Shown here piece after piece: positions 1-63,481 of a stretch of 64,000 nt of DNA. Below the pieces are notes generated by a model, which did no database searches, had not been told where the DNA came from, and was given only the letters and a program-made list of their open reading frames with translations. How positions within the stretch are numbered: the stretch's first letter is position 1; every line of letters begins with the position of its first letter. A program made the translations under genes and the position numbers. The DNA is taken from the NCBI GenBank assembly GCA_001600635.1, contig BCKL01000037.1, forward strand, positions 92,185 through 156,184. The letters are read 5' to 3'. Source of the DNA: Leucosporidium creatinivorum (lineage: Eukaryota > Basidiomycota > Microbotryomycetes > Leucosporidiales > Leucosporidiaceae).

Positions 1-962
1 GCGGCGAAGAGGACGGCGTCGAGGCTGGGGAAGGCGTCGCCGGGTTGAGGAAGATCGGGGATTGGCTGTGGGTGGGGAGAGAAATCAGCCGTGGTTTGTG
101 AGCAGTAGTAGAGCTAGGACGAACAGGACAGACACCGGGAAAAGCGACTCGGTAGGCAGCGAGGTCCGCCTGAGAGACGGCAAGATCAGCTCGGCTCTTA
201 TTGTCAGGCGGCCAACTCAGAGCCTCACCTTCTTCGGTGGGCTGCCAGCTGTCAGCGGCTTTTTGACTCGCCGCAAGCGATCGAGGTGCTCTCCAGAGTG
301 GTTGTGCTCCAGTATGTAGGGCTCCCGCTGGACGACCCAATCGCCCTCGTCCGAGCGCCGAATAGCGCAGCGAGCTCGGCATCCGTACAATGTCCTGCTG
401 CTGCACGTTGAGAGCGCATACTTGGGATGATTGAGACATCGCCCCATGCCGTAGCCAGTGGTAGGGAGGGAGCCTGCGCGACAGGCGGCGAAGAAGTCGT
501 CGGAGGTTGCGAAATGGTCGCCAGGGGAGGGGAAGCCGGCGATGGTGGAGGTTGTGGGTTGCTGGCGAGGGGATGAGCTGCACTCCGATTCGTGCTATAC
601 AATCATCTCACCGTCAGCGAGGGGATGAGGCTACATTCGGACGAGCTCACCTCTTCCTCCTCCGCCTCCTCCTCTTCATCTTCGGACAAGACGATGGCAG
701 CGGTCCGCCGAGCAGGAACGACAATCATCTCGGTATATGTATCTTCCTCCTCGACTTCTTCCGCTTCAGCCTTGACAGCAGCTCGCGCCTCGACGGGTCC
801 CTCAGCAACGACGCTGTCCTCGACGCCGGCGCTTTCGAAGCTCGGCGGTGTTTCTGCGAGCGTACGGTGAGGGAGCAGCGACTCGATTTTCGGTTTGAGC
901 TCCTCCTCCTCCTGTAGCAGAGCCGATTCGACCACGACGGGCGAGCGAGCTTCGAGCTCCAT
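1..962 (-). CDS. FAR1/GCM1-like zinc-finger protein, 3' end beyond window
   Basis: Starts with ATG at 962 and runs off the left edge. The N-terminal ~115 residues are acidic and low-complexity (poly-Glu). An intron with donor GTGAGCTCG and acceptor TTGTATAG near 645-586 leads into a finger module. It opens with FPSPGDHF and FFAACRAG, then has C-x5-C spacing (CSSRTLYGC with RARCAIRRS), DWVV and a closing EHNH, which looks like a Cys2-His2-type FAR1/WRKY-GCM1 fold. After two more introns a second module begins with LPQPGDAFPS and is cut off by the window edge. The PGD-x-F opening is shared with 1386-3499 and 61055-63481, so this is a multi-finger family member. Known: such fingers occur in Mutator-like transposases and in domesticated transcription factors. 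Inferred: a nuclear DNA-binding protein. No transposase core is visible. Confidence 0.72.
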
Positions 963-1385
963 TTCCAGTCGTAGCTTTTGAGGGCCGGGTCGACACTGGG
1001 GTAGAGCTGCGGGACCTGGAAAAACCTTTGAGAGCTGTAGTCGAGTATACGCTGCTCTGGCGGGGGCGGAGAGACGAAAAAAGGACGAAGGATTGTGGGA
1101 GAGGGCAGCCTGCGAGCGAGCCGAACCTCGCTGTTCGTGAGAAGGGCGGAAGATGGTGCGAGAGCTCGAGAGAGCTACAGCTTGGGCCCGAGATACTCAA
1201 AAGTCTCTTTCCGCCCTCGACGTCTTGCTTGCCGGCACACAAGAGCCTGCTCGGCGCGAGCTGCCCAGCTGCCTTCGCGGAGCTCTTGAAGTCGCTCAGC
1301 CGGCCTGCAGTCGACACTGGTCCACGGATAAATGCCCCAATAACAGCTCTACACTATCGTACTATCCTCACCTTCGACCTCAGCC
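963..1385. other. Intergenic region
   Basis: Lies between the start codon of the 1-962 gene and the stop of the gene at 1386-3499, both on the minus strand. It must hold the promoter of the first and the 3' end of the second. Several GAGCTGTAG/CTACAGCT words are present. No gene or recognisable control site was found. Confidence 0.6.
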
Positions 1386-3499
1386 TTACACGCCCCCTGC
1401 AGCCATCGCCGAACCTCCGTCTCCCCTCAGCAATCTCCTCACTCCCGCCTTCAACAGATGACGCTGCAGCAACGGCACCTCTATATCCACCAGTAGCCGT
1501 TCCAGCGTCCTCTCCTCCAACACGAGGAACGCGACCAGCAATGACCGATCTCTGATACCGCCGAGGTCGAGGAACGGCGCCGAAGCGCTAAGAGAAGGGT
1601 GGAGGGAGGTGAGGAAGGTTTTGATGGTAGGAAAGAAGGATGATGGGGACGGAGGAGGGGTGGCGAGCTGAGGAGGAGGAGCCGAGGGTTTGGTCCGCTT
1701 GAAGACGTGCGCCGAGGTCGAGGGGAGGGGAGCTGAAGGCGCACGCTTGAGGGAGGCAGAGCGAGAAGGGGGCGGTCGAGGTAGATCGATGGTGAAAGGG
1801 GGTTTCTTGAGGGTGCTGAGATGCTTGGGGGATGAAGACGAAGAGCTGGCGATGGAGGGGCGCTCGGAGCTGGATCGCAGGCGACGAGGACGAGGCGAAG
1901 GGAGCGAGGAGCGAGCTCTGGCTGAGGTACGAGATGTACGAGGCTTTGACTTGATGGATCGAGCCTCTGCCTCGAGCTCTTGTAGCTAAAGAGACAAGCA
2001 CGTCAGCTATCACGGTTCAACCCATTGGCGTTCAAAGCCTGACCCTTTTCCGATCCTTCGACTCGCTATAGTAGAACCGGGCTCCAATGCGAGGTCTCCA
2101 CTTTGGGTCTAGTATGATGTTCCGATCACGGCCATGCGAGTGCTCGAAGTTGCTACCTGCAGCGACTCGCCATCCGTCGCCAGCGCGCTCGGCGATGACA
2201 ACGAATGTGTAAGACCAGCGCTTCCAGGGCGAGGCCGACGTAGCGTGCTGACAGCGAAGGCGTACACAATCCTCCAGGACGAGCTTGCAGATGTTGACGC
2301 CCACGACCGGTACGATGGCAAGCCTGAGGCGAAGGAGGAGCAGTTCGACGNTATCGAAGCGGTCGCCGATGGAAGGGAGGCCAGTGAGATGCTACAGGAA
2401 AGCGTGGTCAGCACGAATATGGTAGAGTATGGAGTTGGGTGTNAGACCCACTGGTATACGACCAGGGAAGGCGAGGCGATACTGGAGAGAGATCGGATGA
2501 GCTTCGTTCAGCCGAGTCGAATAACGTCGACTCACCTCTTGCTCCGAGTGTGACAAAGTCTTTTTGTCATTCGAGATTTCAGAGTCGCTCTCGCTGTCTT
2601 CCGTATCATCTGTTGATGGGAGCACACGTCAGCGCAAGACCTCGCCTGAGCAGAGGCGAAGAAGAAGGCTAACCTTGCTCTAGCTCGCGCGAAGAGGTCC
2701 GTCGCTGTACCCTCCTCTTCCGTCGAGCTCCAATAGGTTCCAGGAAGCCGTGATCATGATCGAGTCTGTAAGGACTGCTGGTGACCACCCACATGCCGTC
2801 GGCGTTCGGGCGGGCGGCGATCCGGAACTTGCAGACATGAGCTGTTCGACGCGAGCAGCATACAGCGAAACAGTCCTCGCGCTCCGTATACTTTGAGGCA
2901 GTACTGCCATACGCAGCGCGAGCACCTGCGCGACAGGCGTCGAAAAAGGCCGCCGAGGAGGGGAAGCTGTCGCCAGGCGAAGGAAGCGCCGCGGTAGAGG
3001 TGCTTGGGACCGATGCGCGAAGGGTGGATGTTGATGAAACATGTATGACTTCGAGCTGTTGGCAGGGAGGCAGGTCAGCGCGAGTCGATTCGGCGACGGA
3101 ACAGCTGCTCACCTCGGCCGAAGTCTCTTTCTCCTCAGTAGCCCCCTCGTCGTGCGAAATCTCAATGATGGGCGTCAATCGAACTTTGGGAAAGGTAGGC
3201 TCCTCCTCTTTCACCTCGGGCGACTCTGCTGTCCCTCGCAATAAGCCTTCGACTGGTTCAACCTCCGCACTCGGGCGCAAGTCGGGCTCAGCGTCCAGCT
3301 CGATGCCCTGCAGAGCTGTTTGAGCAACCGGAGTAGTTTCAGACTCTTCCAACATCTGGCTGTAGGTCTTTGGAGCTTCCCGAGGCGGTGTCGGCGAGCC
3401 CGAAGCGACGACGGGAGCGGGACGAGATGGCGAGTGGGGAGGCGAGAGCGAGAAGCTCAGCGGGTCGTTGAGCGTCGGGGCGATGGCTGTAGTTTCCAT
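1386..3499 (-). CDS. Double FAR1/GCM1-like finger protein with C-terminal helical module
   Basis: ATG at 3499-3497, TAA at 1388-1386, five exons. Residues 1-150 are acidic and Ser/Pro-rich. The first intron (57 nt, near 3110-3055) has a length divisible by three and no stop, so an unspliced reading also stays open. Finger 1 (about residues 153-235) has LPSPGDSF, FFDACRAG, CCSRRTAHVC, GMWVV and LDHDH. Finger 2 (about 285-380) has LPSIGDRF, CVRLRCQHA, DGWRVAAG and FEHSHG. A last intron starting GTCAGG leads to a basic, Ser/Pro-rich region (nuclear-localisation-like) and a C-terminal helical module with FLTSLHPSLSA and FLDLGGI. Inferred: nuclear DNA-binding regulator with a SAM-like interaction module. 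The base N at 2351 falls in finger 2 and leaves one residue undetermined; N2443 is intronic. Confidence 0.78.
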
Positions 3500-3956
3500 G
3501 CGATTATATTTGTAGCCTCTCCTGCTTTACGAAGCCTCGAGAGAAGCGATAAAAGCGAGCAGATTGGGCGGAAGGCAAGAGCGAAGTTCCCGAATCGCCG
3601 CCAGGTCGGTCAGCTTCCAAGGGCCACTTCGTATTCAACGAAGCTCCCACAGAGTAGTCAGCTGTGTAAGAACATAGTTCGACTCGCCTAGCTCGGTTCA
3701 ATTGCATTCGCTCCTCTTCGGAGCTCCTCCTGCTCCGATCCTCTCTCCCGCTGCAATCAAGCTGCACAGAGTCAAAGCTATCGGTATACATCTTCTCTGA
3801 CAAACATGACCAGCGCTCGCCTGACCGAGCTCCACAACCGTATCCTCCTCAGGCAATCTTGACCCTCCGAGTCCAGCTCGGCTCACTGCTCCCGTCTCCT
3901 CAAGTTCGAGTATCAAGCAACGTTCCAAGCTGGCAAGCTATCCCATATCCTACTCA
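3500..3956. other. Intergenic region
   Basis: Promoter side of the double-finger gene and 3' flank of the next minus-strand gene, whose stop codon is at 3954-3956. No conserved protein, RNA gene or repeat was seen. Confidence 0.55.
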
Positions 3957-5118
3957 GGTATCTTGGCGTTTCCTCACCTCCCTCTGCAACCCCTCCTTTA
4001 ACTCGTCAAGTAGCATAGGCGGAATCCTTCCCTCCAGCAACTTCATCATCGTCGCCATCTTCTGCTCTTCCCCCGCGCGGCTGATCAAGAAAGCCGGCCA
4101 CCTCACCCCAATCTCCTCGAAGATATCGACAAAGCTGTCGCCGAAGGTAGGGTCGTCGGCGATGAGGGAGTTGAGGAAGAGGCGGAGCTCGGTCGTCGAG
4201 CCCGAGGCATCGTGCGAACCGGTGGAATGCTTGGGCTTCTTGAGCGCATGGGCTGGGGGTGTCCTAGCGTTGGAGATGGTAGAAGAAGGCGAGTCGACGC
4301 AGCTGTTGATAGAGGGCTTCTCGTCCTCCTCGTCGTCGTCTGAGAGGACGATGTCGAAGTCGCGGTGGCGCTTTGAGGGGACTGACGGCTTGACGTCGGC
4401 TTGCGGCGAGGTCGGAGAAGGGATGGCAATCGCCGGGGGACGTTGAGACCCGCGAGCGTGGCTGGTCGAGGGCGAGAGATCGAGGGAAGGAAGCTCGGCG
4501 GACTTGACGACGACGTTGAAGGAAGGGGAGGGTGGAAGAGCGCCGAAGAAAGTGGGCTGTGGGTGTGGCACGTTAGCCTGCCGACCGGAAATGGATGTAA
4601 CGAGCTGCACACACCTTCTCGCCCGTCACGATCAGCTTGAAGCCGTTGCTCGTCGACTTCTCGTTGCTCGGCGCCGGCTGCGCTACTCCCTGCGAAGACC
4701 CACTACTTGCCTGCACTGCTCCTTGGACCCTCGACTCGAGAGGCGATCCCGTCGTCGTCGCAGACGAAGGCTTGGATGGAGAAGGAGCGCCTGGCGCCTG
4801 CATACGGGAAGGTCAGCGACGTTCGAGTGCGAGACAGGTGGAGGGCGAGCGTACAGGCGACGTGAATCCTCTACGAGACGAAGCATCTTGCTGAGCTGAA
4901 GTTACCTTGGGAGGCGCTGGCGGAGCTTGTATCGGGATGGGACTCGGATGAGCTGGAGCGCGAGCCTGACGATCATCTGCCAAACCGGGGCAACGCCGAG
5001 GTCAGCAAAGGCTCGCGCGGGGCGCGCTCACCAAGCCTAGCAGCTCACCCGACGGTACCAAGGTAACATCATACTCCTGCAAGAAGGCCTTGAGAGCGGG
5101 AAGGTCGGCGAGGGCCAT
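3954..5118 (-). CDS. Low-complexity protein with SAM-like helical module
   Basis: ATG at 5118-5116; introns near 5049-4978, 4909-4801 and 4616-4559, each with GTGAG/GTAAC/GTGTG donors and a CTGAC or CTAAC branch point; stop TGA at 3956-3954. The product is about 309 residues. It opens with LPALKAFLQEYDVTLVP, then has a long Pro/Ser/Ala-rich part, a short acidic patch (LSDDDEEDEK) and basic KRHR and KKPKH stretches. Residues about 233-300 form a helical module (LRLFLNSLIADDPTFG, FEEIGVRW) that resembles the C-terminus of the neighbouring finger gene and of the genes at 26.9 and 61 kb. No zinc finger is present, so this looks like a relative that kept only the interaction module, or a partner protein. 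Function unknown. The start codon lies 13 nt from the left inverted repeat of the candidate element at 5131-5736. Confidence 0.7.
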
Positions 5119-5130
5119 GTTGGCAACGTC

Positions 5131-5736
5131 GGCCAGCTGGACTCAACATGGTACAAGTACAAGCCCGGACTGTACTGTAATTTACTGCGGAAAGTACAGC
5201 CCCTATCCCGAACCTTACAGTACAATCACAGCCTCTCGGATCCGTCAGGCGCGTAACCGAGTGTCAAAAGTAGCCAGCTCGGCGCTCGGCGAGTGGTCTA
5301 CGAAGCTCTACTTGGTCTTCAAACAGCTCGAGGGCTCCCAATCGATGGCTCACTAGTCGAGTGGTTATATCACTGCTCATTCAAAGCTCTCGAGGCGCGT
5401 TCAATTCGCCTTGAGGTACACCCTATGTCCTTCAGCGACAGCTTTTCTCGCCAAAAAACTTCTATCAACATGTACATTGCGCCAAATCTTACCCTTTTGA
5501 TACGCTCAGCGTACTACACGACTTTTCACAGCATCCATGTACTCCAGTAAGTGAGCATTTGCGAGCTCGGCGTTGACCTCGCGACCTTTTCTCCCTTCTC
5601 CAGCCTCTTCCGGCTGATACAGATACACGATGTACCTGTACTGAGGTGTATCGCGTTACATTGCGGGGTAAACCGGTACGATACGAGTACAGAGGCCAAA
5701 TCCTGCAGGTTTTGTACCATGTTGACTCCAGCGGCC
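5131..5736. mobile_element. Candidate MITE-like element with ~25-nt terminal inverted repeats
   Basis: The 26 bases at 5131-5156 match the reverse complement of 5712-5736 with about two mismatches and one indel. The shared core is TCAACATGGTACAA. The interior (about 550 bp) is visibly poorer in GC than the flanks and rich in GTAC and TACAGT words, with no transposase frame. This structure fits a non-autonomous DNA element. It overlaps the last coding exon of the 5526-7051 gene and sits directly upstream of the 3954-5118 gene. No clear target-site duplication was found, so it could instead be a small inverted duplication of unknown origin. Confidence 0.4.
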
Positions 5737-7051
5737 AGCCTGCTCCTCCAGATCGCCGAGGTCGCTTCGCGCAGCTCGTCGAGGCGTTGGATGTGCTGAG
5801 TCGGGGCAAAAGTTTTGAGGATAGTAAAGCGAACGGCAAAGAGAGGAACGACCGAGGGTTTGATGGGGAACGGGGGAATGTCGACGGCGAAGTGGTGGCA
5901 GAACTGCTGCCATGCGGTGAGGGCGCTGGCGAGGTGGGAAGCTCGACGAGTACTCTGGATGCCGCTGATGTATGTGTCTAAGAGGCGTCGAGACCTTTCG
6001 ATCAGGGGAGCTGCGTACGATAAAGCTGTCAGTTTGGTTGTCGACAGAGAGACAGGTCACGAGGGGACGCACCATCGTAGTAGGAGCGCTGATTGGCGAA
6101 CACAAAAGCCCTGGTGTCGATCAACTCTTTGAGCGCCTTGCTGCTCGTCGCAACCGCCCAATCGTTGTCCTTAGGCGCCGGCTTCTGGAAGATGAGGTAC
6201 TGTTCGAGCTCGGCGGTGGTCTTCGAGCGGGTGCGGACGTGTCCTGGAGGTGGGTAGAGCAAGGTGTGCCGTCAGGGATCCCTAGTATCCCTGCCGAGGG
6301 ATGCGGAATAACTCACCACCATCTCCAACCTCAGCCAATTTGCCCTTCTCGGCGGCGTCGCCAGCTGCAAACTATTTCGACGCCTTCCTCGCCTGCTTGT
6401 TCTCGGCCTTCGGCTCGGGCTTTCCAGACAGCGCAGCAGCTGGATGCGAGTGCTCGGTGCAGCTGAGTCTAGCGTCCACTGCCCAGCGTCCCATCTGCGC
6501 GACAGCGACAATCTTCCACGAGCAGCCGGGCTCGGCGCACGAAGCTTCGGCTTTATCGTCTCCCAGCTTCTTCTCCACGAGGCGGAAGCTGTGCTGCTTG
6601 GTCTGTCGAGAGACGTCGGCGAAGAAGGCGGTGGGAGAGATGTAGTCGGAGGTAGTGCTAGGGAGGGAAGGCCGAGGTCGGGGAGTCGAGCTTTCCTGAG
6701 CCTTGGTAGGCGCGGTAGTGATCTACGGGAAAGCCGATCTAATGTCAGATGGCTACTCTCGCTCTGCTGCAGGACCTCATTGCCGCCTCAACTCACCTTG
6801 AGCTTCTCAACCTTCGGCGCACCAGTCGCGGGCTTCATACCGGCGTTCGAAGGCTCAACGGCAGGCCACTTCATCTGCGAGCTGCTACCAGGCTTTCCGC
6901 CTCCTGCCCTACCTCTCCCCCTTGGCTTCTGCACCGCGGGCGAAGCGCTCCTCGCCGCGTTCTCTGATTCCTCGCGAATGGTAGGGAGAGTCGGCACTGA
7001 AGCTGCCAGGCGATGCTGACCGGGAGCGGCTGAAGACGAGTTCGACCCCAT
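5526..7051 (-). CDS. FAR1-like single-finger protein, probably decaying
   Basis: Likely start is ATG at 7051 (MGSNSSSAAPGQ); an upstream start at 7249 is possible. After an intron near 6796-6725 comes a finger module: ISPTAFFADVSRQ, CAEPGCSWKI, GRWAVDARLSC and EHSHP. Directly after it an in-frame TAG (6374-6372) interrupts a frame that otherwise stays open and in phase through two further introns. The downstream part (FCHHFAVDIPPFPIKP, FAVRFTILKTFAPTQHI) is a helical W-x2-FC module seen in red-yeast finger proteins (recalled, not searched). The last about 65 codons run into the candidate mobile element at 5131-5736 and are unlikely to be native. So the gene is either broken by a nonsense codon plus an insertion, or the TAG is a sequence error. 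Confidence 0.5.
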
Positions 7052-26907: not shown

Positions 26908-29900
26908 ATGCCTACAACGTCTTCCAGCGCCGCGGACCCGACAACAGCTGCTCCGGCTTCGGCGAGTGGTGCAGCGAGTCCATCGGTCGTCAGCGCAGGA
27001 GGAACGAGGATCACCTTCACCAACGGCGCGACCGCCAGTCCTACGCCTCAGTTCTCGGCCTCAGCTCAGCCGGCCGTCGCCGCTCCGCCCTCTGCTTCCA
27101 GCAGCAAGTCGATCAGGCGCCCCCCGCCTGCACCAGAAGACGCTCCCATCACTCGGAACACCACCCGTCGACTCTCCTCCTCGACCGACCGGCCGCGCTA
27201 CCGCGAGATGTCGAGCGAGTCGGGCGGCGAGGTCTCGGACGGCGATCCTCCAGGCTACGTCGCGCCGCCGCCGCAGGAGAGGGAGTTCCCTCTGGTCGAG
27301 CGCAGTTACGTCGAGCTCGAGGACATCATCTTCTCCAACCCCAAGACGTTCACTTCTATGGTCTTTGAGATCGCCGAGTGAGTTGAGCTTTCCGAACGCC
27401 GAGGAGAGGATTCGCGCTGACGTTGGTCGCCTACAGGACTCGTCGAGCCAGTCTCTTCGTCTCAGTCGACCGTACCGACAAGAAGGCTTCTGCTTTCATG
27501 CACATCACCTGCGCCTACCGTGGAGCCGGCTGCCCCTTCATCCTCAAGCTCACTCGGGCTAAGGAGGGAGGATGGATCCTCAAGTCCGCGACGCTGCCAT
27601 CGGGAGAAGGTGCGCCTCCCATTAGCCTACATCAGCCTATCTCTCAGCATCGCTGACCTCCCCTTCTCTTCCCCTACAGCCGACTCGAAGGGCTCCTTCT
27701 ACGGCTGCCATCACCCTACCGGCGCCCATCCCGACAAGGCGCCCATCTACGGCCCTACTGGAGGCGTCGCTCCTCCAGGATCTGCCGTCGGAGGAGTCCC
27801 TACAGCCCTCAGTGTAGGAGCTCCTTCGCCAGCCGCCGTCGCCTCGACCCTCTCGCTCGCTTCTGGTTCCGAAGCCACGCCTCCTCCCGGCAAGAGCAAG
27901 ATCAAGAAGAAGGCGCCCGCCGTCAAAAAGGCTGCAGCACCGAAGAAGGGAAGCCCTGCTGGATCGCCGGCGCCTCTCGACTACCAGTCGGATAGCGTGT
28001 CGGGCAAGCTCGTACCCTCGCGCGAGAGCCGCGTTGCCAACGTCGCCGAACGTAACTCGCTCGCCAACCCTCAGGTCGTAGGTAACATGGTCAAGACCAA
28101 GCCGATGGACCCGGACCGAGCTCTCGCGCCGCCGTTCCTCCGAAGCCTCAGCTTGCAGAAGCAGATCACGCCCGTCCTCTCCTACGAGCGATACAACACG
28201 CCAGGAGAGTCGAGCTTGAACGCTCGAGCGCCGAACTACATCCCCGGCACCGGCTCCTTCCCCGCCGTCGGTCGCGAGCAGCCTCACGCTTCGCCTTCCG
28301 TCCTTCGTCCAGTCAGCCCGGCCCACGAGCGCTCCTCCTACACTCTTCCTCACAACTTTCCCCCGAGTCAGCACTCCGCCCATCCGCTCCAGCAGGCTTC
28401 TCGCAGCCGCTCGCAGCCCATCGGCCAGATTCATCCTCCTCCACCTTCTCATCAACAATCGTCGCCGCTCGCTAGCGATCAAGGCTACCCCTACCAACCC
28501 TCTTACCGCCACATCCTCGTCGCTCAGCCTCCTGCACCAGCCCCACCGCGCCCTTCCCTCCTTCCCACGACCTCCTCCCTCACCTCGTGGACCGCCTTCC
28601 TCACCGCGCTCGATCCAACTCTCGTGCCCTTCGCCAAAGTGCTCGCCGCGCCGACTATGGCTCTCGCGCCTGAAAGCTTCTTCGCCGAGTCGCTCGAGAT
28701 GAGGATGGCGTTGATCGAGGTGCTGGATGTCGAGCAGGTGGGGACTTGGCCGAGGTTGCGATTGAAGATGAAGGTCAAGGAGAAGGGGGAGGAGGTGTGG
28801 AAGAAGGTCGAGGAGGAGGAAAAGCAGAGGAACAGGGAGCAGAGGGCTAAGGAGGTCGAGAGGGAGAGGGAGAGGGAGAAGGTTAGGGAGAAGGCGAGGG
28901 AGGTGCAGAAAGAGCAGCAGGCTGCGAGGGCTCAGGAGGCGAGGGAGCAAGCGTCGAGGGAGCAAGAGTCGAGGGAGCAGGCATCGAGGGCGAGGGAGCA
29001 ACAGGCGCAAGCGCAGGCGATGGCCGAAGCCGAGCAGGCCAGGTCAACCGAGGCCAACGAGGTCGTCATGAAGGAGGTCACCCTCGTCCCCGCCGCTCCT
29101 GCTGCCCCCGCTGCGCCACAGGACTCTCCACTCGCAGAGCAGGACACCGCGATGATCGTCGACACTCCTCCGGCGCCTGCAGCACCCTCTCCCGCTCCCG
29201 TCGCCGAAGCGACCTCCAAGAACAAGGGCAAGCGCGGCACGAAGGCGAGCAAGTTCAAAGCTGCTGCCAAGTCCGCCTCCGCGCCTACGAGCCCCTTCGT
29301 CGCCGTTCCCGCCCTACCTCCTACCGCTTCGCCTTCCTCCACGCCCGCCGCTCCTACCGCTTCGGCTCCTCTGACCGTTTCGAAGCCCGCCACCTTCTTC
29401 TTCGAGATCCCCTCCATCGCGCCACCCTCGACCTCGACTTCAGCGCCTACACCCACCACCGCGCCTTCCTCCTCGACCGCCCTCACCGCCTCTGCGCTCA
29501 AGCAAGTCGAGCTAAAGCCGGCTCGCAAAGATCCTCGTGCGCCAACGTCGCCCCTCTCCTCGGCGATGAGCATCTCCTCCGACGAGGATGGCGATATCCC
29601 CCTCGTTCAGCTCTCAGCGATGGCGAGGGAGGCGAGGGAGGCGAGCGAGACCAAGGAGGAGGGCGAATCGATCGCTCAACTTCGGAAGCTCGTCGTCGTC
29701 TACGCCAATGGCCACGAGTTGAGCGGCTACTCCGTCGTCGTCGGTAGGGATGAGACGCTCCACTTGTTCGACGGCGTCCCATGGGAGGCGGTGAGCGCGG
29801 AGCAGCGGCATCAGTTTCGACTCGACCTCGAGACGGTCTGCAGTGCACGGCAGAAGTTCAGGGATTCGGGCGGAGAGGTGGACACGATGACATTCAAGCG

Positions 29901-31146
29901 CATGATCGTCTCGGTCGGGGACGAGGAGAGGGCCGTGATGGATCTGTTGCAGAGCCGAGGCCAAAATTTGGAGCCCATCAGCCTCATCACCGACGACGAG
30001 CGGCCGACAAGGTGGAATGGCGACATCAACGGCAACGGCGCCGAGGTCGAGGCTGGAGCCGACAGCCCCAGGGATGGATCGCCTGACGAGCTCCTCGTTA
30101 CCGCCGTCCATCGCTCTCCCAAGATCGGCAACGGCACAACTTCTCCCAAGGTCCCTCGCTCGCGCACCTCTTCCAATTCTTACGCGCCCCCTCCTCCGTC
30201 TCGCCCTTCCACCGCCAACTCGAATGCCGGCGTCCGCTCCTCGGTCGGCGGCGCTCCCGCCAAGAACGGCCCTCCCTCGCAGAGCGACGTCAAGAGCGCC
30301 GTAGCTCTCGCGTTCCGCAAGGCCTCCATGGCTGGGGCCGATGGAGGCGCTTCAGCTTCCGCCTCGCCTGCGGTCAGCCCAACAATCTCGACTCGCGATC
30401 CTCCTACCTCGGCGTCGACCAAGCGACCTCGCTCTCCCACTCCTCCTCCCGTCTACCCCACTCTCGGAAAGCCCGCTCTCCCCCCTCGCCTCTCTTCTCC
30501 GGGCCCCAAGGTCGAGTCGGCTGGCGACAAGGTTCGCCGCGAGCTCGCCTATCGCCACACTCCTCCTCCGCCGAAGAGCAGTCCTCGCCCTCCCAGCGGC
30601 ACCATCATTCCCTTCCCGACTGGTCCACCGAAGGAGAGGTACCCTGCGCCTCCTCCCCCTCCTCCGCCGCCTCGGCCCTTGCCATCGCCGGCGGTTCGCC
30701 AAGTCACTTCGGCGCTCTCCGCCGCCGCCGCTTCCGTCTCCACTTCCCGCTCCTCCTACCCTCCTCCTCGTCCCAGCGGTACGCCTCTCGGCCCCGACCC
30801 CTCCATCCGCATCAAGACTCCCGCCAACCCGCTCTCCTCGAGCACCTCTCGTCTCGCCTCGACCGAGCCACGCACCAACGGCAACGGCAACTACGAACCA
30901 GGAAGGCGATCGTCGTGGTACGGACCAAGTGGAGGACGCGACGACGACAGCTACGGCGGCATCCCTGGTCTTTCCCCTCCCCCTCCTCCTGCTCCCTCGA
31001 ACGGTGGGGGAGGCAACGGACCGAGATATGGAGCGGACGGAGGGCTAGCAGGACCGAGAGCAGGGTACAACGATCGTTGGGCGCCTCAGTCGAACGGGCG
31101 AGAGGGTGGCTACAGCGGAGGGCAACCGAAGAGGAGGAGGAACTGA
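26908..31146 (+). CDS. Long low-complexity finger protein with helical module and charged coil
   Basis: First ATG at 26908 (MPTTSSSAADP); TGA at 31144-31146. Three exons: donors at GCCGA|GTGAGTT near 27380 and GAAG|GTGCGCC near 27610, both with CTGAC branch points. About 1,360 residues. Residues 1-150 are Ser/Ala/Pro-rich. A finger module follows: FSNPKTFTSMVFEIAE, FVSVDRTDKKASAF, CAYRGAGCPFILKL, GGWILKSATLP, YGCHHPTGAHP. Then a basic Lys/Ala region, a helical module (SLTSWTAFLTALDPTLVPFA), a strongly charged E/K/R/Q coiled-coil stretch of about 90 residues (28780-29050), and long Ala/Pro/Ser regions with poly-Pro near 30650. The order finger, linker, helical module matches the family at 1386-3499. 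Probable nuclear regulator with disordered activation regions; function not known. Confidence 0.8.
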
Positions 31147-43335: not shown

Positions 43336-46173
43336 CTAATCTACTGCGCGGACTTTCTTGCAGAAATGCTTGTGCAGCGGATGGTGCGCCAGTTGGCAGC
43401 TGCAGTTCAAGCCGAGCAGGTCAGCGTCGAGGTAAGAAAGTCGGCTCGAGTAAGCGTCGAAGCGCGGCGCGGATGCACTCACGCAGCATTACAGTACTTG
43501 GCCTTATCTGCGAAGCCAAGAGCGAGGTCAGTCTCAAAGTCTCGAAGGCTCGATGTCTCGCTCGGTGATGGCTCGGCACGACTTACGACAGCGAGAGCAG
43601 CTGAGAAGCCCGGAACGAGTAGCGTAGCAGTTCTCACAGGTGCCTCTGTAGAAAAGGAGGTGTACATCAGTGATCTGCGAGGCAGAGCTCCGACGCTCAA
43701 CTCACAGGTGGGCTGTTCCTCCGGTCAGAAGGGTGAACGACTTGCGCTCGACTGGTAGCCCCTTTACCTCTCCACATTCAGCGCAACACCCTTTTCCAAC
43801 GCCTGGATCCGGGATGTCTACTCCCGGGGGCGGAGGAGACAAGCCTGGCGAGGCATCGACCCGATAAATCGAATCCCACTGCTCGGCGGCGGCAGCATAG
43901 CGTTCCAGGATGACGCGGATCGTGTTGCCGACGCACTTGTAGTCTCCTTCCAGACTGTCCCGACGGTGTGTTGAGTCCGGCTGACCTTGCCAGTAGGCCT
44001 TGGCTCGCTCATCGAAGTCTTGGAGTTCGGCGAGCTCACGAAGGTCAAGGGCGATGGAGCTACCGCCGAAGATGAGGACCAAGGCCTTGAGCTCGGCGAG
44101 CGCCTGTCCGATCCCAGGGGTGTCGGTTGGAGTAGTGTCGAGGAACGGCCGGTAGCAGTCGTAAGCTCGGCGGAGGAAGGCTGCCGATTCCTGGCGCACG
44201 GCGGGGATGGGAACGAAGTGACCGGAAGCAAGAGTGCAGGCCTTGGCGAAGGAGCGGACAATTTTGTGGCACAGGAGCTCAGTCCTCATGAAGGCGGAGG
44301 GGTTGGAGTCAAGGCCCTGTGTGAGAAGCAGACTGTCAGCGAAGAGCTCGGCGGCGAATTCGGCGGCAAGCGCCGAGTACTCAGCCTTGAAGCCAAGCGC
44401 TCCAGGTTAGCTGCTGGACCAAGTGCTTCAACTTACTGCTTGTGCATACACGTGGCCACTGCGGCTGTGATGATCTTTGGCTGTCTTAGCCATAAGATAG
44501 TGAAACGCCGCCGACGAAGGAGGCCCGTTGTGCACCAGGTAGGCGCGGCCGATGTCGTGCGCCGCTGAGTCTTGTCCTGCACCGAAGAGGGTCTTCATGC
44601 GTAGGATGCACGGGACGAGCGATAGTTGACCGTATGTTGCTTCGTGTCCGGCGATTGCTCGCTGGATTAGCGCGAAGGCGGTGTCGTCCTTGATGCAGGT
44701 CTTGTTGACCTCGCCGTGGTGGAGTGGATGTTCATGCTTCTCGTTATGCATCTGGAAGCACAAAAGAGGGTTCATCTCGAGAAGCCGCGCCAAAAAGGTG
44801 ACCGAGCTGGAACGCCGAGGAAAGGGTCAGCGCCGAGGGCTCTAACGGATCCGGACAGTGCACACCTTAATCGGATCACCGCTCTCCCTGCGAAGAATCT
44901 CATGGAAAGCTTGCTCCGACAACACCGTCCACCGATGCGAAGAGCCGAGCGCGCTGACCTCGGCGCTGGCGACGTCGGGTCCGAGCACGCTGATCTCGCT
45001 GCAGCCTTCCGGGTCCTCTAGTGACAGAGGGGGAAGCGCGAGCCGTTTGCCAGTATACGGGCGAGGGCGAGAGTCGTCGTGGTCTGCATGGGAGTGGCAG
45101 AGGCTAAGACCTCCGAGAAAAGGACGTCAGCTTCTCATCTCGCGAATCGCCAAGACCATGCTCACGCTTCGAGAGTCAAGTACGCGTAGCTCCTCCAATA
45201 AAGATCTGGGTGTCGGAGAAGCCCGACAAGGAAGAGAAGAGTTGGAGGGTGGTCGAGTACAGCGGCTTTGTACTCGTGCTCGGCAATCAGCGTGCTGAGG
45301 AAGAGGGTAATGCGGTTCCGAAGCGGAGCGTTTGGTAGTCTGCGCAGATAAGATAACATGAAGAATGATAGTAAAGTTGGATAGGAACCGGATTGGGTGG
45401 AGGGGCGGGCGAGAACGAGGGAAAGTCAGCTCGGCCATCAACCGTCGCAGGCAAAGAACACGCACGGTCGCTTCACGCAGTTCATGAAAGCATCGAGCAC
45501 ACGACTTGACCTCGCACGCTGTACGCACAACATGTAAGCTGGCTGTTCTGCACCCAGTCAGACGTAGGACTCACGAAATGACTCTTCGGCGATTGAGCGG
45601 CCTTGAAGAGAATGTCGATTGCGACGATGAGGGGATCGCCGTGGAGCTCAGGGATCATGTCGATGATTTGTGAAGCGCAGCTCTTTGCGATAGCGTTGCG
45701 AGCTCCCATCTTGGTCGTCTCCCCGGCGGCGTCGACGATATCGGAGGGGGCGGCGAGGGCGTGCACGCGAGTTTCCGGCCGCTCGAGCTGCTTCCCGAGC
45801 AACTCGTATAGCCCTCGAGACCGGGAAAGCTCCTCAAGTGTGCCCTCTATCATGAGGCGAGCCGACAGCACGCAAGCCGCCCGTCTCATCCGCACGTCCT
45901 CAGCGCCGAAGAGCAACCTCAAAGTCGTCGCATGTTCGTCAATGGCCTCTCGAAGGACCAGGTAAGATTTCTTGTTCTGCTTGAAGACTGCAGGGGAGAA
46001 GCTTGGGTCAGCTCGTGCTTCCCCAATCGCTCCAAGTCAAAACGCACTTGAACTCAGCCCTCCCCATCTCGCGCATATCGCCACGCAGGCGGCAGGATCT
46101 TGCTCGCTCCCTAGTAGCTCGGATAGCTTGATTAGCTTGGAGAGATCTTGCTTTGACGGCCTGTCGGGACGAG
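43336..46173 (-). CDS. MYND zinc-finger protein with ARM-like N-terminus (copy 2)
   Basis: TAG at 43338-43336. The start codon was not found: the first exon supported by homology ends at 46173 just downstream of an acceptor, and no in-frame ATG precedes it. Long helical repeat region (LIKLSELLGSEQDPAACVAI, TTLRLLFGAEDVRMRRAA, LGKQLERPETRVHALAA), then GKGCCAECGEV and a C-terminal MYND finger spread over four small exons: CENC, CSRCHKAKYCNAACQLAHH and HKHFC, all seven Cys and one His present. MYND fingers bind Pro-rich peptides in corepressors and methyltransferases; no SET domain is seen. At about 44796-44800 (an A5/T5 run) the frame between LGHLL and ARLLEMNPLLC needs one base fewer, so there is a frameshift or a sequence error. 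Tandem paralogue of 46468-49201. Confidence 0.7.
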
Positions 46174-46467: not shown

Positions 46468-49201
46468 CTAATCAGCCTTTTCTGCCACGCAGAACTTCTT
46501 GTGGAAGCGACGGTGTCCCTTCTGGCAGCTGTGAAGCGAGGAGCGAGTCGATGGTCAGCGCCGAGAAGCGGAGAAGAAGACAAGGGCGACGGGAAGGAAT
46601 ACGAGCGGGACGCACAAGGTACTGCAGTACTTGACCTTGTCTGCGAGAGACGTAAGAGGTCAGCGGAGCCTCAAAGCGCCAATAACGAGCGACGCTTAAA
46701 TCGCGCCTGCTGGGGCGGGTCAGCGAGTTCGAGAGGAGACGGCTCACGGCATCCGGTACACTTCAAAAGCTTGCTTGAGGTGGCGTTACAGCCGTCGCAC
46801 GTCTCCCTGCGAACGTGAGCCAACGTAAATAGTCAGTGACGACGAACATCGGCTCTCGACGCCTCGAGCTCACAGCAACGCTGTTCCTCCGCTGTAGAGG
46901 GTGACTACCCTCCTCTCGGCCGGCGCACCGAGTTGCGTGTCACACTGTGCGCAACATCCCTTCCTCTCTTCCTTGTGCGGTACTCCGACTCCAGCAGGCG
47001 GGACGGGGAGGCCAGGCGATCCGTCGACGGCGTAGATCTTGTCCCATTCTGCCGCGGCGGCAGGGTACAGCTTGGCGATGAGCTTGACCGTGCGCGCCGA
47101 GATGCCGTCCAAGCCGGCGAGAGCGGTGTCGCGAGTGTCCGAGGGCTCCTGCTGGAGCCAGTAGGTTTTGACCTTCTCGGCGAGGAGATTAACCTCGTTT
47201 GAGCTCGTGGAGGTCGAGGGAGAGGTCGGGGCCGCCAAAGAGGAGCACGAGGAAGTTGAGCTCTCCAAGTAGCTCAGGGAGGTGGATGCTGTCGATGGGG
47301 GTCGAGGCGATGAGCGGACGAAGCGAATCGTGAGCTCGCCGGAAGTAGGTGGCGGCTTCGGTCTGGGCGGGGGGGCCGGGGACCCAGGACGTGTTGATAG
47401 CTTGGAAGCCGTCTTTCAGAGATGCGAAAAGACGCTTAACGTGAAGGAGTGATTTGGTGAAGCGGGAGGGCTTAGAGTCGAGGCCCTGTTCGGCGACGGC
47501 GAGAGAAGGTCAGCGACTGCCGCTGGTGAGCTCCGCAAAACTCACAGCTTGGACGAACGTCTGGATCTCATGGCGTTGTTTGGTCTCGTCTGCCGCCTGT
47601 GCCATGAGGTGACAGAAGACGGCCGATTTGGGACGACCGAAGGCCTGGATGTGCTCCAGTCCGGCCTCGCGCGCCTCGCGAGCCTTCTGTGCGCCCATGA
47701 GAGTCTTGATGCGAAGGAGGGTAGGTACGAACGAGCGAGGATTGAGCTTCTCGTGCGCGGAGATGGAATTTTGAATTAGGGAGAAGGCGTGGTGGTCGAC
47801 GATGCAGCTCTTGCTCGTCCCCGAGGTGTGCAGAGCGTGCTCGGTCTCCGCCTTGTGAAGGGAGAAGCCTGTACAAAAGAAAGTCAGTCAGAAGTATCTA
47901 AAGTAGAACAAGTATACTTGCAGATGGTCGGATCGAGCTCGAGGAGGTCGGCCAGGCGGTGACCGAGCTGTTTAAAGTTGGCTCAGCTCCGAGCCTACAA
48001 TCAGCGAAGGACGGGACCCACCTTGATGAAGTCCTTATCGCGCTCGCAGTCCACAAATGCTACACCCGCCATGACGCTGATGCGGTAGGTCCAGACGTTC
48101 CACTCGCCCGAGACTTCGAGCTGCGGTCGCCGAGCGGAGTTCATTGAGGGCTGAGGGGGTTGTGGCTCGTTCTGGCAGACGCTGCGCGAGGTAGAAGGGT
48201 CAGAAATGATCCATCTTCGTTTCTTACGACGAGGCAGGGAAGAGCTTACCGGTACAGAAGGCGGTACGCCACCAGCCTCGAGAAGAAGTCTTGGGCTCGA
48301 ACCATGCCGACGAGGAAGAGCACAGTCTCGGGGTGGTTGGAGACAGTCTCGGTGTACTGGAAGAGCTCCATGAGCTTGCGAAGCTCGTGTACGATGTGAT
48401 TGCGAAGGTAAGTGTTGGGAGGGCTGGAGGAGTGGGCGGTCAGCTCAACGCCGAGCGCCAGTGGAAGGACGGCGTACGGAAGCTTGGTACAGCGCATGAG
48501 CGCGTCGAGAACACGAACAGCATCGTTTTTCTGTGGACGTGAGCGAGAAGTCAGCCCTGTGACTCCTTCCGAGGGTTCACGGAAGCTTACCATCGTCAGC
48601 GCCGCCTTCAACAAGAGATCGACACAATCGACTAGCATGAGCCTATCCTCCTCGGTGCGAACCTCGAGCGTCATCGTCAACTCGATGAGCTGCTGTCCAC
48701 ATCCTTTGGCAAGAGCATTGCAGACCTCCATGTTGTCGTTTCGGCCGACGCCGTGCAGCCAATCGGCGAGGGCGGCGAGGGCTCCTCGTCTCGTCTCGGG
48801 CGACTCGAGCTGCTTGCCCAGGACGCCGTATGTGCCGTAGAGACGAAGAAGCACTTCTAGGTGGGTATCGACGCCGAGCTTCCCTACGAGCACGGTCGCC
48901 GCTTGGCGGAGGCGGAGGTCGTCCGAACCGAACAGCAGGCGAAGGGTCGCTGCATGCTTAGGCCACGACTTGACCATAGCTTTGTAGGCTGACCTTTGCT
49001 CTTCTGCAGGCTTGTAAACTGTACGAAAGTCAGCCCGAACTTGTGCACCGGAGAGCGGGAGGACGAACCGGGCAAATCGAACATGCTGGCTGCTGCTCTT
49101 GAACAGGCTTTGATATTCTGCTCATCGCCGAGGAGCTTGAGTAGAGGGCCTAGTGTTTGCTTGTGCTGCTTGGTAGCCGTAGGTCGCTTCTTGGGCGCCA
49201 T
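46468..49201 (-). CDS. MYND zinc-finger protein with ARM-like N-terminus (copy 1)
   Basis: ATG at 49201 (MAPKKRPTATKQHKQTLG), TAG at 46470-46468, about ten exons. The N-terminal two thirds are helical repeats: LLKLLGDEQNIKACSRAAAS, TLRLLFGSDDLRLRQAA, LGKQLESPETRRGALAALAD, LALGVELTAHSSSPPNTYL. Then LGHRLADLLELDPTIC and GKGCCAQCDTQLGAPAERRV. The C-terminal MYND finger reads ETCDGCNATSSKLLKCTGC, HKVKYCSTFCQKGHRRFH, KKFC. Exon order and introns agree with the copy at 43336-46173, which shows tandem duplication. Alternative upstream start at 49321 exists but adds a poorly conserved stretch. Function unknown; a scaffold binding Pro-rich partners is the family-based guess. Confidence 0.82.
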
Positions 49202-61054: not shown

Positions 61055-63481
61055 ATGCCTTCGACTACACCCAGTAACAGCCCTCCGCCCCGTCCTCCCG
61101 GCTTCCTCTCGCCCAGCGGCTCCCTCTCGGCCAACATGGCCAACAACGCTCAGCAAAACCTTCCCAGCTTCGACCAGCGCTCTTCCACCACTCCAGAGCA
61201 GCAGCAGCAAACCTCTACTCGTGCATCCAAGTCAGCTCGTGCCGGTGGCGCCGTCGCTGGCAGCTCCGCGTCAGCCCAAGCGCTCGGTGCCGATGGACCT
61301 ACGCAGGCGGTAGGCAAGCGTGGCGCTCAACCCGTAGGAGAGACGTTCAACTCGTTGTCCAAGCTTCTCGAAGCTCGTCTTGAGAAAGAGGGGGGGGAGC
61401 TTGGGCGCCAAAGCCGACGAGACCCCCTCGGCGTGCACCTTCTTTTGCTCCCAGAAGCGCGGCGGATGCAAGTGGGCTGCAAGAGCCGACGTCAAGGATA
61501 CGCCAGGAGAAGGAAAACGCTACCTACTCGACGAGCAAGCGAGCACTTGGGAGCACGGCGATGAGTGCCGAATCATTTCGAGTCGCAAGGGCAAGGGAGT
61601 CGACAGGGGCGCCGAGGGTGAGTTGTGTACAGAAGCGCCACTCCCGACACCTCGAAGCTGACTCTGGGCGTCTACGCTGTCCTGCATAGCTCCCATCCCC
61701 TCGACGGCGAAGGGACAGTTTCGTCGCCGCGAGGAGCGCCGAGCTTCGGATGACCTGCAGGACCTCGGAGCTGCTCCTCCGAGCAAGAAGGTGTGTCTCC
61801 ATCCTCTAGACTACGGACCAAAAGCTGACTGTTTGCCCCTTGCGCTCGTCTCGGCGTTAGAGCTCTCGTCTGCCTCGAGTGGGCGACCGTTTCTTCGTGC
61901 CCAGGAACGCCGTCGCCGAGACGTCGGCTGTCACCGAAGGCGTCTTCGGTTCCGGCTTCAAGGTCGTCGACGAGTTCACTCGCAAGTGCGCCAGGTCTGG
62001 CTGCTCGTTCAAATTCTCGCTCGTGGAGGAGGACGATGGATGGACGACCATCGATTCAGGCGCCGTTCTCACCCATAACCATCCCGCATCGCGAGCGCCG
62101 CTGCCATTGAGAAGTCGGCCAAGTACGAAGCGTTGCAAGCGTCTCGCAAGGGCAAGGTCAGTTTGCTCAGAGGCCGACGGCGAGATCTCGCTTCATTGGG
62201 CTCGTCGCTCGTGGTCTTCGCTAACACCTCGCGCTGCTTCGTACTCAGAAATGCCCTCCTCCTCGCTCACCCGCCCCCGACTTCGTCGACGACGACAGCT
62301 CGGTCGAGGCTGATGGGCGCAACCTGGTACGTCTCAAGCCTCTACGACACCCTTGAGTCGGTATATACAGCTGACTTCCCTCATCAACACTACTCCTACA
62401 GGGCTTCCGACTTCCTCGAGTCGGCGATCACTTCTCGAGTCGCAACGATGCCAAGGAGAAGATCTCGACCCTGTTGTGGAGCGTGTACTGCTATGGGGTG
62501 AGGCTGGATGGGAGTTCCATGAGGTGCAAGGGCAAGAGGGGTCATGACGAAGGAGTGCAGTGCCCCTACCAGCTCTCCTTCGCGACGAGTCCGACCAGCG
62601 ACGCCGTCACCATCGTCAAGCCGTCCAAGCTCTTCCACAACCACCGGTCCAACCCCAACTGGTTTGCTCATGAGCTCGCAGGAGAGTACAAAGCTTTTCA
62701 GAAGCTGCAGGAACCTGGCGTGAGTCCTCGATTGGCCGAGCGCCGAGGGTTGAGCTGAGCTCGCGCTGACCCATTTTACCCAAAGCAGAGCACCGTCGGA
62801 CCCAAGAAGAGGAAACCCGCTCCCACTACTTCCCAGAAACCCAATGAGGAGGACCAGCGCACTCTTGCCGCGTCGAAGCGCGCTCGAGCCTCGGCTTCGA
62901 CTTCGGCGACGACCTCCACCAGCTCTCACACCGTCACAGGAGGATCGAAGCCTGCCGCTCCTCGCCACAAAGCACCTCCCTCGGCTTCTTTGGTGCGTCA
63001 GGGGTCGTCCTCGGCAGATACGGACATGCTCGACCTCTCGAACGACTCGGACGAGGAGGGTTTCTCCAACGATACGGACGAGGAAGACGTCAAGCCTCAG
63101 CTCCACCTCGCCTCCGGATCGACTGCCAGCCGCGCTCCCTCTTCTCGCTCGTCCGCCACTGCGCATAAACCTCACGCCCCCCGAGTCAAAGCCGCCGCCG
63201 CCGCCCCCTTCGTGAAATCCCCTTCCGCCGAGCCTCCCTCCTTCGACCTCGACCTCCAGACGTTCCTCAACAAGCTCCGCCCGGGCTTCACCGACTTTGG
63301 CGACGAGTACCACCAGCACTTTGTCAAGGAGGGCGTCAAGAACGTGACGGTCCTGCGTTTCATGGCGGGACAGCAGGGAGGAGCGTGGTTGAAGCTGCTG
63401 GAGCGCCTCGAGTCTGAATCGAAAGTGCCCGAGGTGGCTCTCGAGTTGTTCAAGGAGTGTATGATGAGATTGGTGGCGTGA
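61055..63481 (+). CDS. Triple FAR1/GCM1-like finger protein with C-terminal helical module
   Basis: ATG at 61055 (MPSTTPSNSPPPRPP), TGA at 63479-63481, about seven exons. Finger 1: QPVGETFNSLSKLLEA, CTFFCSQKRGGCKWAARAD and WEHGDEC. Finger 2: LPRVGDRFFVPRNAVAE, RKCARSGCSFKFSLVEEDDG and LTHNHP. Finger 3: LPRVGDHFSSRNDAKEK, RCKGKRGHDEGVQCPYQLSF and LFHNHR. Then a basic Ser-rich linker, an acidic patch (DSDEEGFSNDTDEED) and the helical module FDLDLQTFLNKLRPGFTDFG with WLKLLERLES. The frame slips twice at homopolymers: in the G8 run 61390-61397 and at CCC 62083-62085 after THNHP. Both look like one-base length errors but could be real damage. Family as 1386-3499; nuclear DNA-binding regulator inferred. 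Confidence 0.72.

Follow-up and report, generated by a model that had tools for sequence, protein, structure and literature searches.

An apparently telomere-linked cluster of WRKY-GCM1-class finger genes with a shared C-terminal tail in Leucosporidium creatinivorum

The window, that is, the whole stretch of 64,000 nucleotides analysed here (C37:92185-156184), holds five genes or gene parts that an earlier sequence-only reading had named as carriers of one repeated finger module. To search for this module we built a profile from 15 seed modules and iterated it over the six-frame ORFs of contig C37, of the end of contig C1 and of the other stretches read. Seven fingers were found in the window at E<1e-4, spread over all five carriers (Table 1). 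The E-values of these fingers are inflated, since four of the seven were seeds and matches were fed back into the profile; its independent support therefore comes from a control, in which 54 matches at E<1e-4 on the real ORFs compare with none on the reversed ORFs and none on one shuffle. The module is thus real and present in each of the five carriers, one of them with half a finger only. This half finger (27441-27587) is the sole profile match in the 53 kb that separate the two groups of carriers.

Table 1. Finger genes and their parts in the window and at its left edge. Positions are those of the window unless preceded by C37.
Feature	Position	Strand	Remarks
Gene 1, start of a two-finger gene	1..962	-	ATG at 962; runs past the left window edge
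Gene 1, first finger	298..534	-	profile E 2.3e-20 (inflated); weak FAR1 match, E 0.0013
Gene 1, second finger, crossing the left window edge	C37:91983-92237	-	found by the profile
Gene 1, tail, about 0.6-0.8 kb past the left window edge	C37:91364-91576	-	found by the tail profile
Gene 2, two fingers and tail	1386..3499	-	ATG/TAA; five exons by eye from GT..AG sites
Gene 2, first finger	2750..2986	-	profile E 4e-22 (inflated); no Pfam match of its own
Gene 2, second finger, one N inside	2134..2379	-	profile E 3.7e-17 (inflated)
Gene 2, C-terminal tail (S) domain	1437..1640	-	profile E 1.8e-27
Fingerless neighbour, limits by eye	3954..5118	-	ATG at 5118; no clear S-profile match
Single-finger gene with a different C-terminal part	5526..7051	-	ATG/TGA; no S-domain match
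Single-finger gene, zinc finger (predicted), C-x4-C-x23-H-x-H	6444..6665	-	profile E 2.3e-15 (inflated)
Weak, doubtful carrier	26908..31146	+	half finger 27441-27587, profile E 4.3e-5 (inflated)
61 kb gene, two clear fingers, doubtful first finger and distant tail	61055..63481	+	ATG/TGA
61 kb gene, doubtful first finger	61416..61556	+	profile E 0.15
61 kb gene, clear finger	61870..62082	+	profile E 1.1e-10 (inflated)
61 kb gene, next clear finger	62411..62644	+	profile E 1.1e-12 (inflated)

The gene ends given by the sequence-only reading agree with start and stop codons at 1386-3499, 5526-7051, 26908-31146 and 61055-63481, and gene 1 starts at 962 as stated but runs off the left edge. Of the two carriers that it had described as looser, the one at 5526-7051 holds a finger, whereas the one at 26908-31146 is weak. 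The PGD-x-F opener, which it took as the mark of the family, is only partly so. As a DNA pattern, the opener has 89 matches in the genome against 95 in the reversed control and is therefore uninformative by itself; on C37, which makes up 0.8% of the genome, seven of the 89 matches are found against 0.7 expected, and all seven lie inside fingers, yet PGD is missing from many fingers of the family.

The other carriers and their neighbours are more varied. The C-terminal part of the single-finger gene (5526-6056) has no Pfam match and no family tail; by eye, we take its product to resemble the core-binding part of tyrosine recombinases. In the weak carrier, a tail-like stretch is found near 28585, with E 7e-4 among decoys and an hhalign probability of 20%. 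The 61 kb gene ends in a part that is at most remotely related to the family tail (hhalign probability 18%; E 0.02 among decoys); this part matches the C-terminal part of the fingerless neighbour of gene 2 with 32% identity over 77 aa (blastp, E 7e-7 in a one-against-one comparison). Ordinary genes are interspersed with these loci: four of ten scanned window frames exceed Pfam cut-offs, namely a Cys/Met metabolism enzyme, a transketolase, a sugar transporter and a TOG/HEAT protein. Separately, the neighbouring minus-strand frames 43702-44406 and 46870-47415 appear to be copies of one gene with a common ending containing GCCA-x-C, and the second of them has a DUF7576 match below threshold.

To count ligands we used the 53 profile hits; as one finger (C37:32.1 kb) was hit in two frames, they represent 52 fingers. 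The ligand set C, C, H, H is kept in 44 of the 52 (E<1e-4) and C, C, H, C, with a His-x-Cys ending, in four more, a retention to be read with the fact that the fingers were selected by a profile that itself rewards ligands. A recognisable set is missing in the remaining four: the second finger of gene 2, the half finger at 27441 and the fingers at C37:61.1 kb and C37:183.1 kb. Cys44, Cys52, His77 and His79 are invariant in an alignment of 35 of the 52 fingers, from which partial fingers, near-duplicates, H-x-C fingers, the second finger of gene 2 and two full-length fingers were omitted. WRKY-GCM1 fingers are best known from plant regulators and from transposase parts, and the founding survey of the superfamily is reportedly that of Babu and others (2006). 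The class is defined by the pattern C-x(n)-C-x(about 22)-H-x-H/C and four strands (PMC4350883), and two Cys with a His-x-His/Cys ending are present in 48 of the 52 fingers, which are accordingly predicted to bind zinc.

Pfam matches of the fingers are weak and consistent. At E<=1, ten of the 35 aligned fingers match FAR1 (best 2.8e-4), three AFT (best 0.005) and two the Mutator DNA-binding domain, while eight other families are matched by one finger each; most fingers, including the first finger of gene 2, have no FAR1 or AFT match. In the genome as a whole, eight matches at E<=10 are obtained with the FAR1 model (PF03101), seven on this chromosome arm and one on contig C2. Only one of the eight passes the curated cut-off of 28.1 bits, with 29.1 bits when frame neighbours are counted, but in hmmscan the same frame stays below it at 25.5 bits. 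The AFT model (PF08731) has no match in the genome at E<=10, and hence none that reaches its cut-off, and the Mutator DNA-binding model finds a single unrelated place (E 0.70). Searched against PDB, the finger profile has one match up to E 10, the transcription factor Aft2 (E 0.064). When the 53-row profile is aligned to this part of Aft2, the score is 39.3 (probability 95%); 200 shuffles, in half of which the Cys and His positions were left unchanged, reached 17.4 at most. The shuffles overstate the likeness somewhat, because Aft2 was chosen as the best PDB match, for which the database-wide value is E 0.064. The zinc ligands of Aft1 come in the same order, Cys, Cys, His, His (PMC4161868).

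The first finger of gene 2, modelled with AlphaFold2 from six window sequences, is predicted as a helix followed by four strands with a mean pLDDT of 78. Foldseek returned 334 matches to this model at E<=10, none at E<=0.001 (best E 0.15), and no WRKY, GCM, FLYWCH or AFT structure was among the best 50 of the 334. The likeness to FAR1 and WRKY-GCM1 fingers proposed earlier is supported by the Pfam matches, the ligand order and the Aft2 profile match; the fold is a prediction for one finger, to which no known member of the class corresponded among the best 50 Foldseek matches. Taken by its sequence, the module is a finger of the WRKY-GCM1 class, with FAR1 and AFT as the nearest curated families, mostly below their cut-offs.

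Besides the fingers, 23 genes of the family (three on C1 and 20 on C37) have in common a C-terminal domain of some 75 residues, the tail, which a profile recognises and which has the consensus FLPTLxxFLTSLxPSL...GxDSxxxLVxFLxLxD...VPxLQRxLLK. A genome query with the tail only gave 23 matches at E<=10, all on the arm, two of them being one place seen on both contigs. Among 20 tails compared with Pfam there were only three matches, each of one member (best E 0.07); the tail is therefore not a transposase part known to Pfam. Against PDB, 15 hits of the tail profile fell within E 10 (best 0.57); they are chaperonins and other proteins that have no theme in common. The structure predicted from three window sequences has five helices and is poor (pLDDT 59), and Foldseek found nothing significant with it (best E 8). 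A SAM domain, which five predicted helices resemble by eye, was considered for the tail and rejected, there being no SAM match for the 20 tails in Pfam or PDB and the model being poor.

Analysis of the surrounding sequence showed that the window covers part of a larger cluster. As many as 51 of the 52 fingers are located on C37 or at the end of C1; the remaining one is on C2. The arm carries about 28 gene loci, 23 with the tail and five with fingers and no recognised tail, a lower bound, as the analysis covered about 160 kb of C37 (219 kb in all) and parts of the C1 end. For 21 of the 23 tails, the 2.6 kb upstream (5') hold one to three fingers of the same strand, the last of them 271-595 bp away; the other two have no profile-recognised finger, one of these with upstream sequence that was not fully read. 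Because the last 3,006 bases of C1 are identical (100%) to C37:213814-216819 reversed, C37 most likely continues C1, as an unmerged join of one chromosome arm. CCCTAA-type repeats occupy part of the first 40 bases of C37, a short tract that fits a telomere, and if the join is right the family extends from about 9 to 240 kb from it.

Whole-genome protein searches revealed no further convincing member beyond the loci found with the profile. The best match off the arm, C1:880856 (E 3.8e-4), lies over the linker and tail of the query and has an internal stop; C13:738108 (E 0.004) and C29:207180 (E 0.006) follow, and none of the three was recovered by the tail-only query. The sole off-arm member found is G000:C2:626113-627711, a frame of 533 residues with one family finger and no recognised tail, which may be near the founder of the family. 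Apart from this frame, the family is confined to the arm at the sensitivity of these searches. The expansion proposed from five carriers in the window is consequently strong and local, the five being part of about 28 loci, and one to three copies per protein, as first described, is the rule for the fingers of the tail genes. The shared tail and the arm-wide, telomere-linked layout were absent from that description.

Part of the cluster has been copied in inverted orientation. Two inverted pairs are found on C37, one of 3.2 kb at 91% identity, which includes gene 2, and another of 6.5 kb at 92%. The copy of gene 2 (C37:83.1-85.2 kb) is 91% identical to it, and the exons are open in both. In the second finger of gene 2 as assembled, Tyr replaces the second Cys, which is present in the copy at C37:84.2 kb. 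The stretch that spans intron 2 to intron 3 is 100% identical in the two copies, and single Ns at window positions 2351 and 2443 fall at the same positions in both. Each copy of the gene 2 pair has two single Ns, and the copies of the other pair (C37:154.5-164 kb and 172-182.5 kb) have 17 and 21, as compared with three in 50 kb of the remaining C37 read and none in 57.8 kb of the window. Recent gene conversion was considered for the high identity of the gene 2 fingers and rejected on the basis of the 100% stretch, the coinciding Ns and the N counts; a collapsed short-read repeat consensus in the assembly is likelier, and near-identical copies of the family probably carry such artefacts. Because of the suspected collapse, we disregarded the dN/dS of the fingers of this pair (0.20 and 0.33, with 0.10 for exon 4). 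Outside the stretch suspected of collapse, dN/dS is 0.70 for exon 1, 0.29 for the last exon and 0.11 for the tail, and this is the only pair with a usable estimate of selection outside stretches suspected of collapse.

In a FastTree phylogeny of the modules, with weak deep support, first and second fingers mostly cluster by position within subfamilies, as expected had a two-finger gene been copied whole. The exception is the subfamily with H-x-C first fingers, whose second fingers fall among first fingers. A mosaic structure is seen in the gene whose tail lies at C37:70.7 kb: its first finger is 79% identical to that of the C37:190 kb gene, whereas its tail is 58% identical to the tail of that gene and 82-83% to those of two others. 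Among five genes of its subfamily, dS is lower in the tail than in the second finger in all ten pairs. In the window's group of four genes this holds for four of six pairs; the pairs are not independent and several dS values are saturated. Judged from these sequences, tail exchange or homogenisation fits the subfamily of the mosaic gene only. Across 17 gene pairs, dN/dS is below 1 in all estimable segments but one, and no segment gave reliable positive selection, the sole value above 1 (1.48) coming from a near-identical pair full of Ns. Finger dN/dS reaches 0.6-0.9 in several pairs.

Taken together, these data suggest, as the probable reading, that the family consists of sequence-specific DNA-binding regulators whose fingers diverge and whose common tail serves pairing or cofactor binding, and that it spread along a telomere-linked arm. 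Each protein would have one to three zinc-stabilised fingers joined by low-complexity linkers, with the common tail at 23 loci. Every finger may read a short DNA word, and the common tail would let members of the family pair or recruit one shared cofactor; we infer that the proteins act in the nucleus. The genes would have multiplied by tandem and inverted duplication along the arm, the fingers diverging while the tails stay alike, in at least one case presumably by exchange between paralogs.

A gene family that evolved neutrally by birth and death, had little or no function and expanded through recombination in a telomere-linked region would also produce inverted copies, tails without fingers (two of 23), finger loci without tails (five) and fingers without a ligand set (four of 52), and the higher finger dN/dS values agree with it. 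We consider it unlikely, since the four ligands persist in 48 of 52 otherwise very divergent fingers, even if the profile favours such fingers, and dN/dS stays below 1 in the gene pairs apart from the N-rich one.

It is rather improbable that these genes are what remains of FAR1-bearing Mutator-like transposons, decaying and retained as debris near the telomere instead of working as regulators. The N-terminal DNA-binding parts of MULEs belong to the same wider finger class as WRKY-GCM1, and a transposon origin for the finger class as a whole is possible. In favour of relics, the weak finger matches include the FAR1 and Mutator DNA-binding models, the location is telomere-linked, and a MULE table in PMC6446971 includes one subgroup with Basidiomycota among its hosts, half of whose members carry FAR1. 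Nevertheless, the MULE transposase core (PF10551) has no match in the whole genome, in agreement with the absence of a core noted earlier for the window; for the birth of the family from a DNA transposon, suggested at the same time, no donor element was found. Long open frames, the finger-finger-tail order at most of the 23 tail loci, the tail dN/dS of the one usable pair and the lack of a Pfam transposase match for the tail also argue against relics.

That the fingers bind protein or RNA is quite improbable. Small zinc folds are often reused for protein contacts, which counts for it, as does the fact that DNA binding by these fingers is our deduction from their relatives. The nearest solved relative in sequence is, however, a stretch of a transcription factor, Aft2, and the domain of a homolog of Aft2 is described as supposedly DNA-binding (PMC4161868). 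Finally, we regard as very improbable a fungal counterpart of the mammalian KRAB zinc-finger clusters, in which new DNA readers would keep arising in a telomere-side nursery and all act on one machine, silencing or activating, by way of a common tail exchanged between paralogs as the fingers diverge.

The present data place about 28 loci with WRKY-GCM1-class fingers on one arm, most with a partner domain absent from Pfam. If the genes are working regulators, as we favour, they offer a compact natural set for studying how duplicated DNA readers split their targets. That the expansion is specific to the lineage, as the sequence-only reading proposed, is a possibility at this stage: FAR1 expansions are already known, because the domain counts given in PMC4469406 are 14 and 4 in two rusts; the same counts are 0 in three Microbotryomycetes. 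The eight FAR1 matches in this genome, one over the cut-off, against 52 fingers found by the profile suggest that Pfam FAR1 counts miss such families. In PMC5604158, the name FAR1 belongs to a different protein, a lipid regulator of rice blast. Our literature search found no report of this family or of such a cluster in fungi, though such a report may exist.

Several known systems resemble the family in part. MULEs differ from it in their transposase core, which the genes of the family lack. FAR1 (PF03101; the plant FHY3/FAR1 family) shares with it the finger ligands and a C-terminal strand motif, whereas seven of the eight FAR1 matches in the genome are under the cut-off, as is the eighth in hmmscan, and the family lacks a MULE core, has up to three fingers and carries a new tail. 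AFT (PF08731; yeast Aft1/Aft2) has Cys, Cys, His and His in the same order and a profile match far above the shuffles, although the AFT model itself matches nowhere in this genome. Compared with the WRKY-GCM1 superfamily (WRKY, GCM, FLYWCH), the family shows, by reading, no WRKYGQK signature in the 35 aligned fingers and no structural match among the best 50 Foldseek rows, but it has in common with it the C-x(n)-C-x(about 22)-H-x-H/C arrangement and the predicted helix and four strands.
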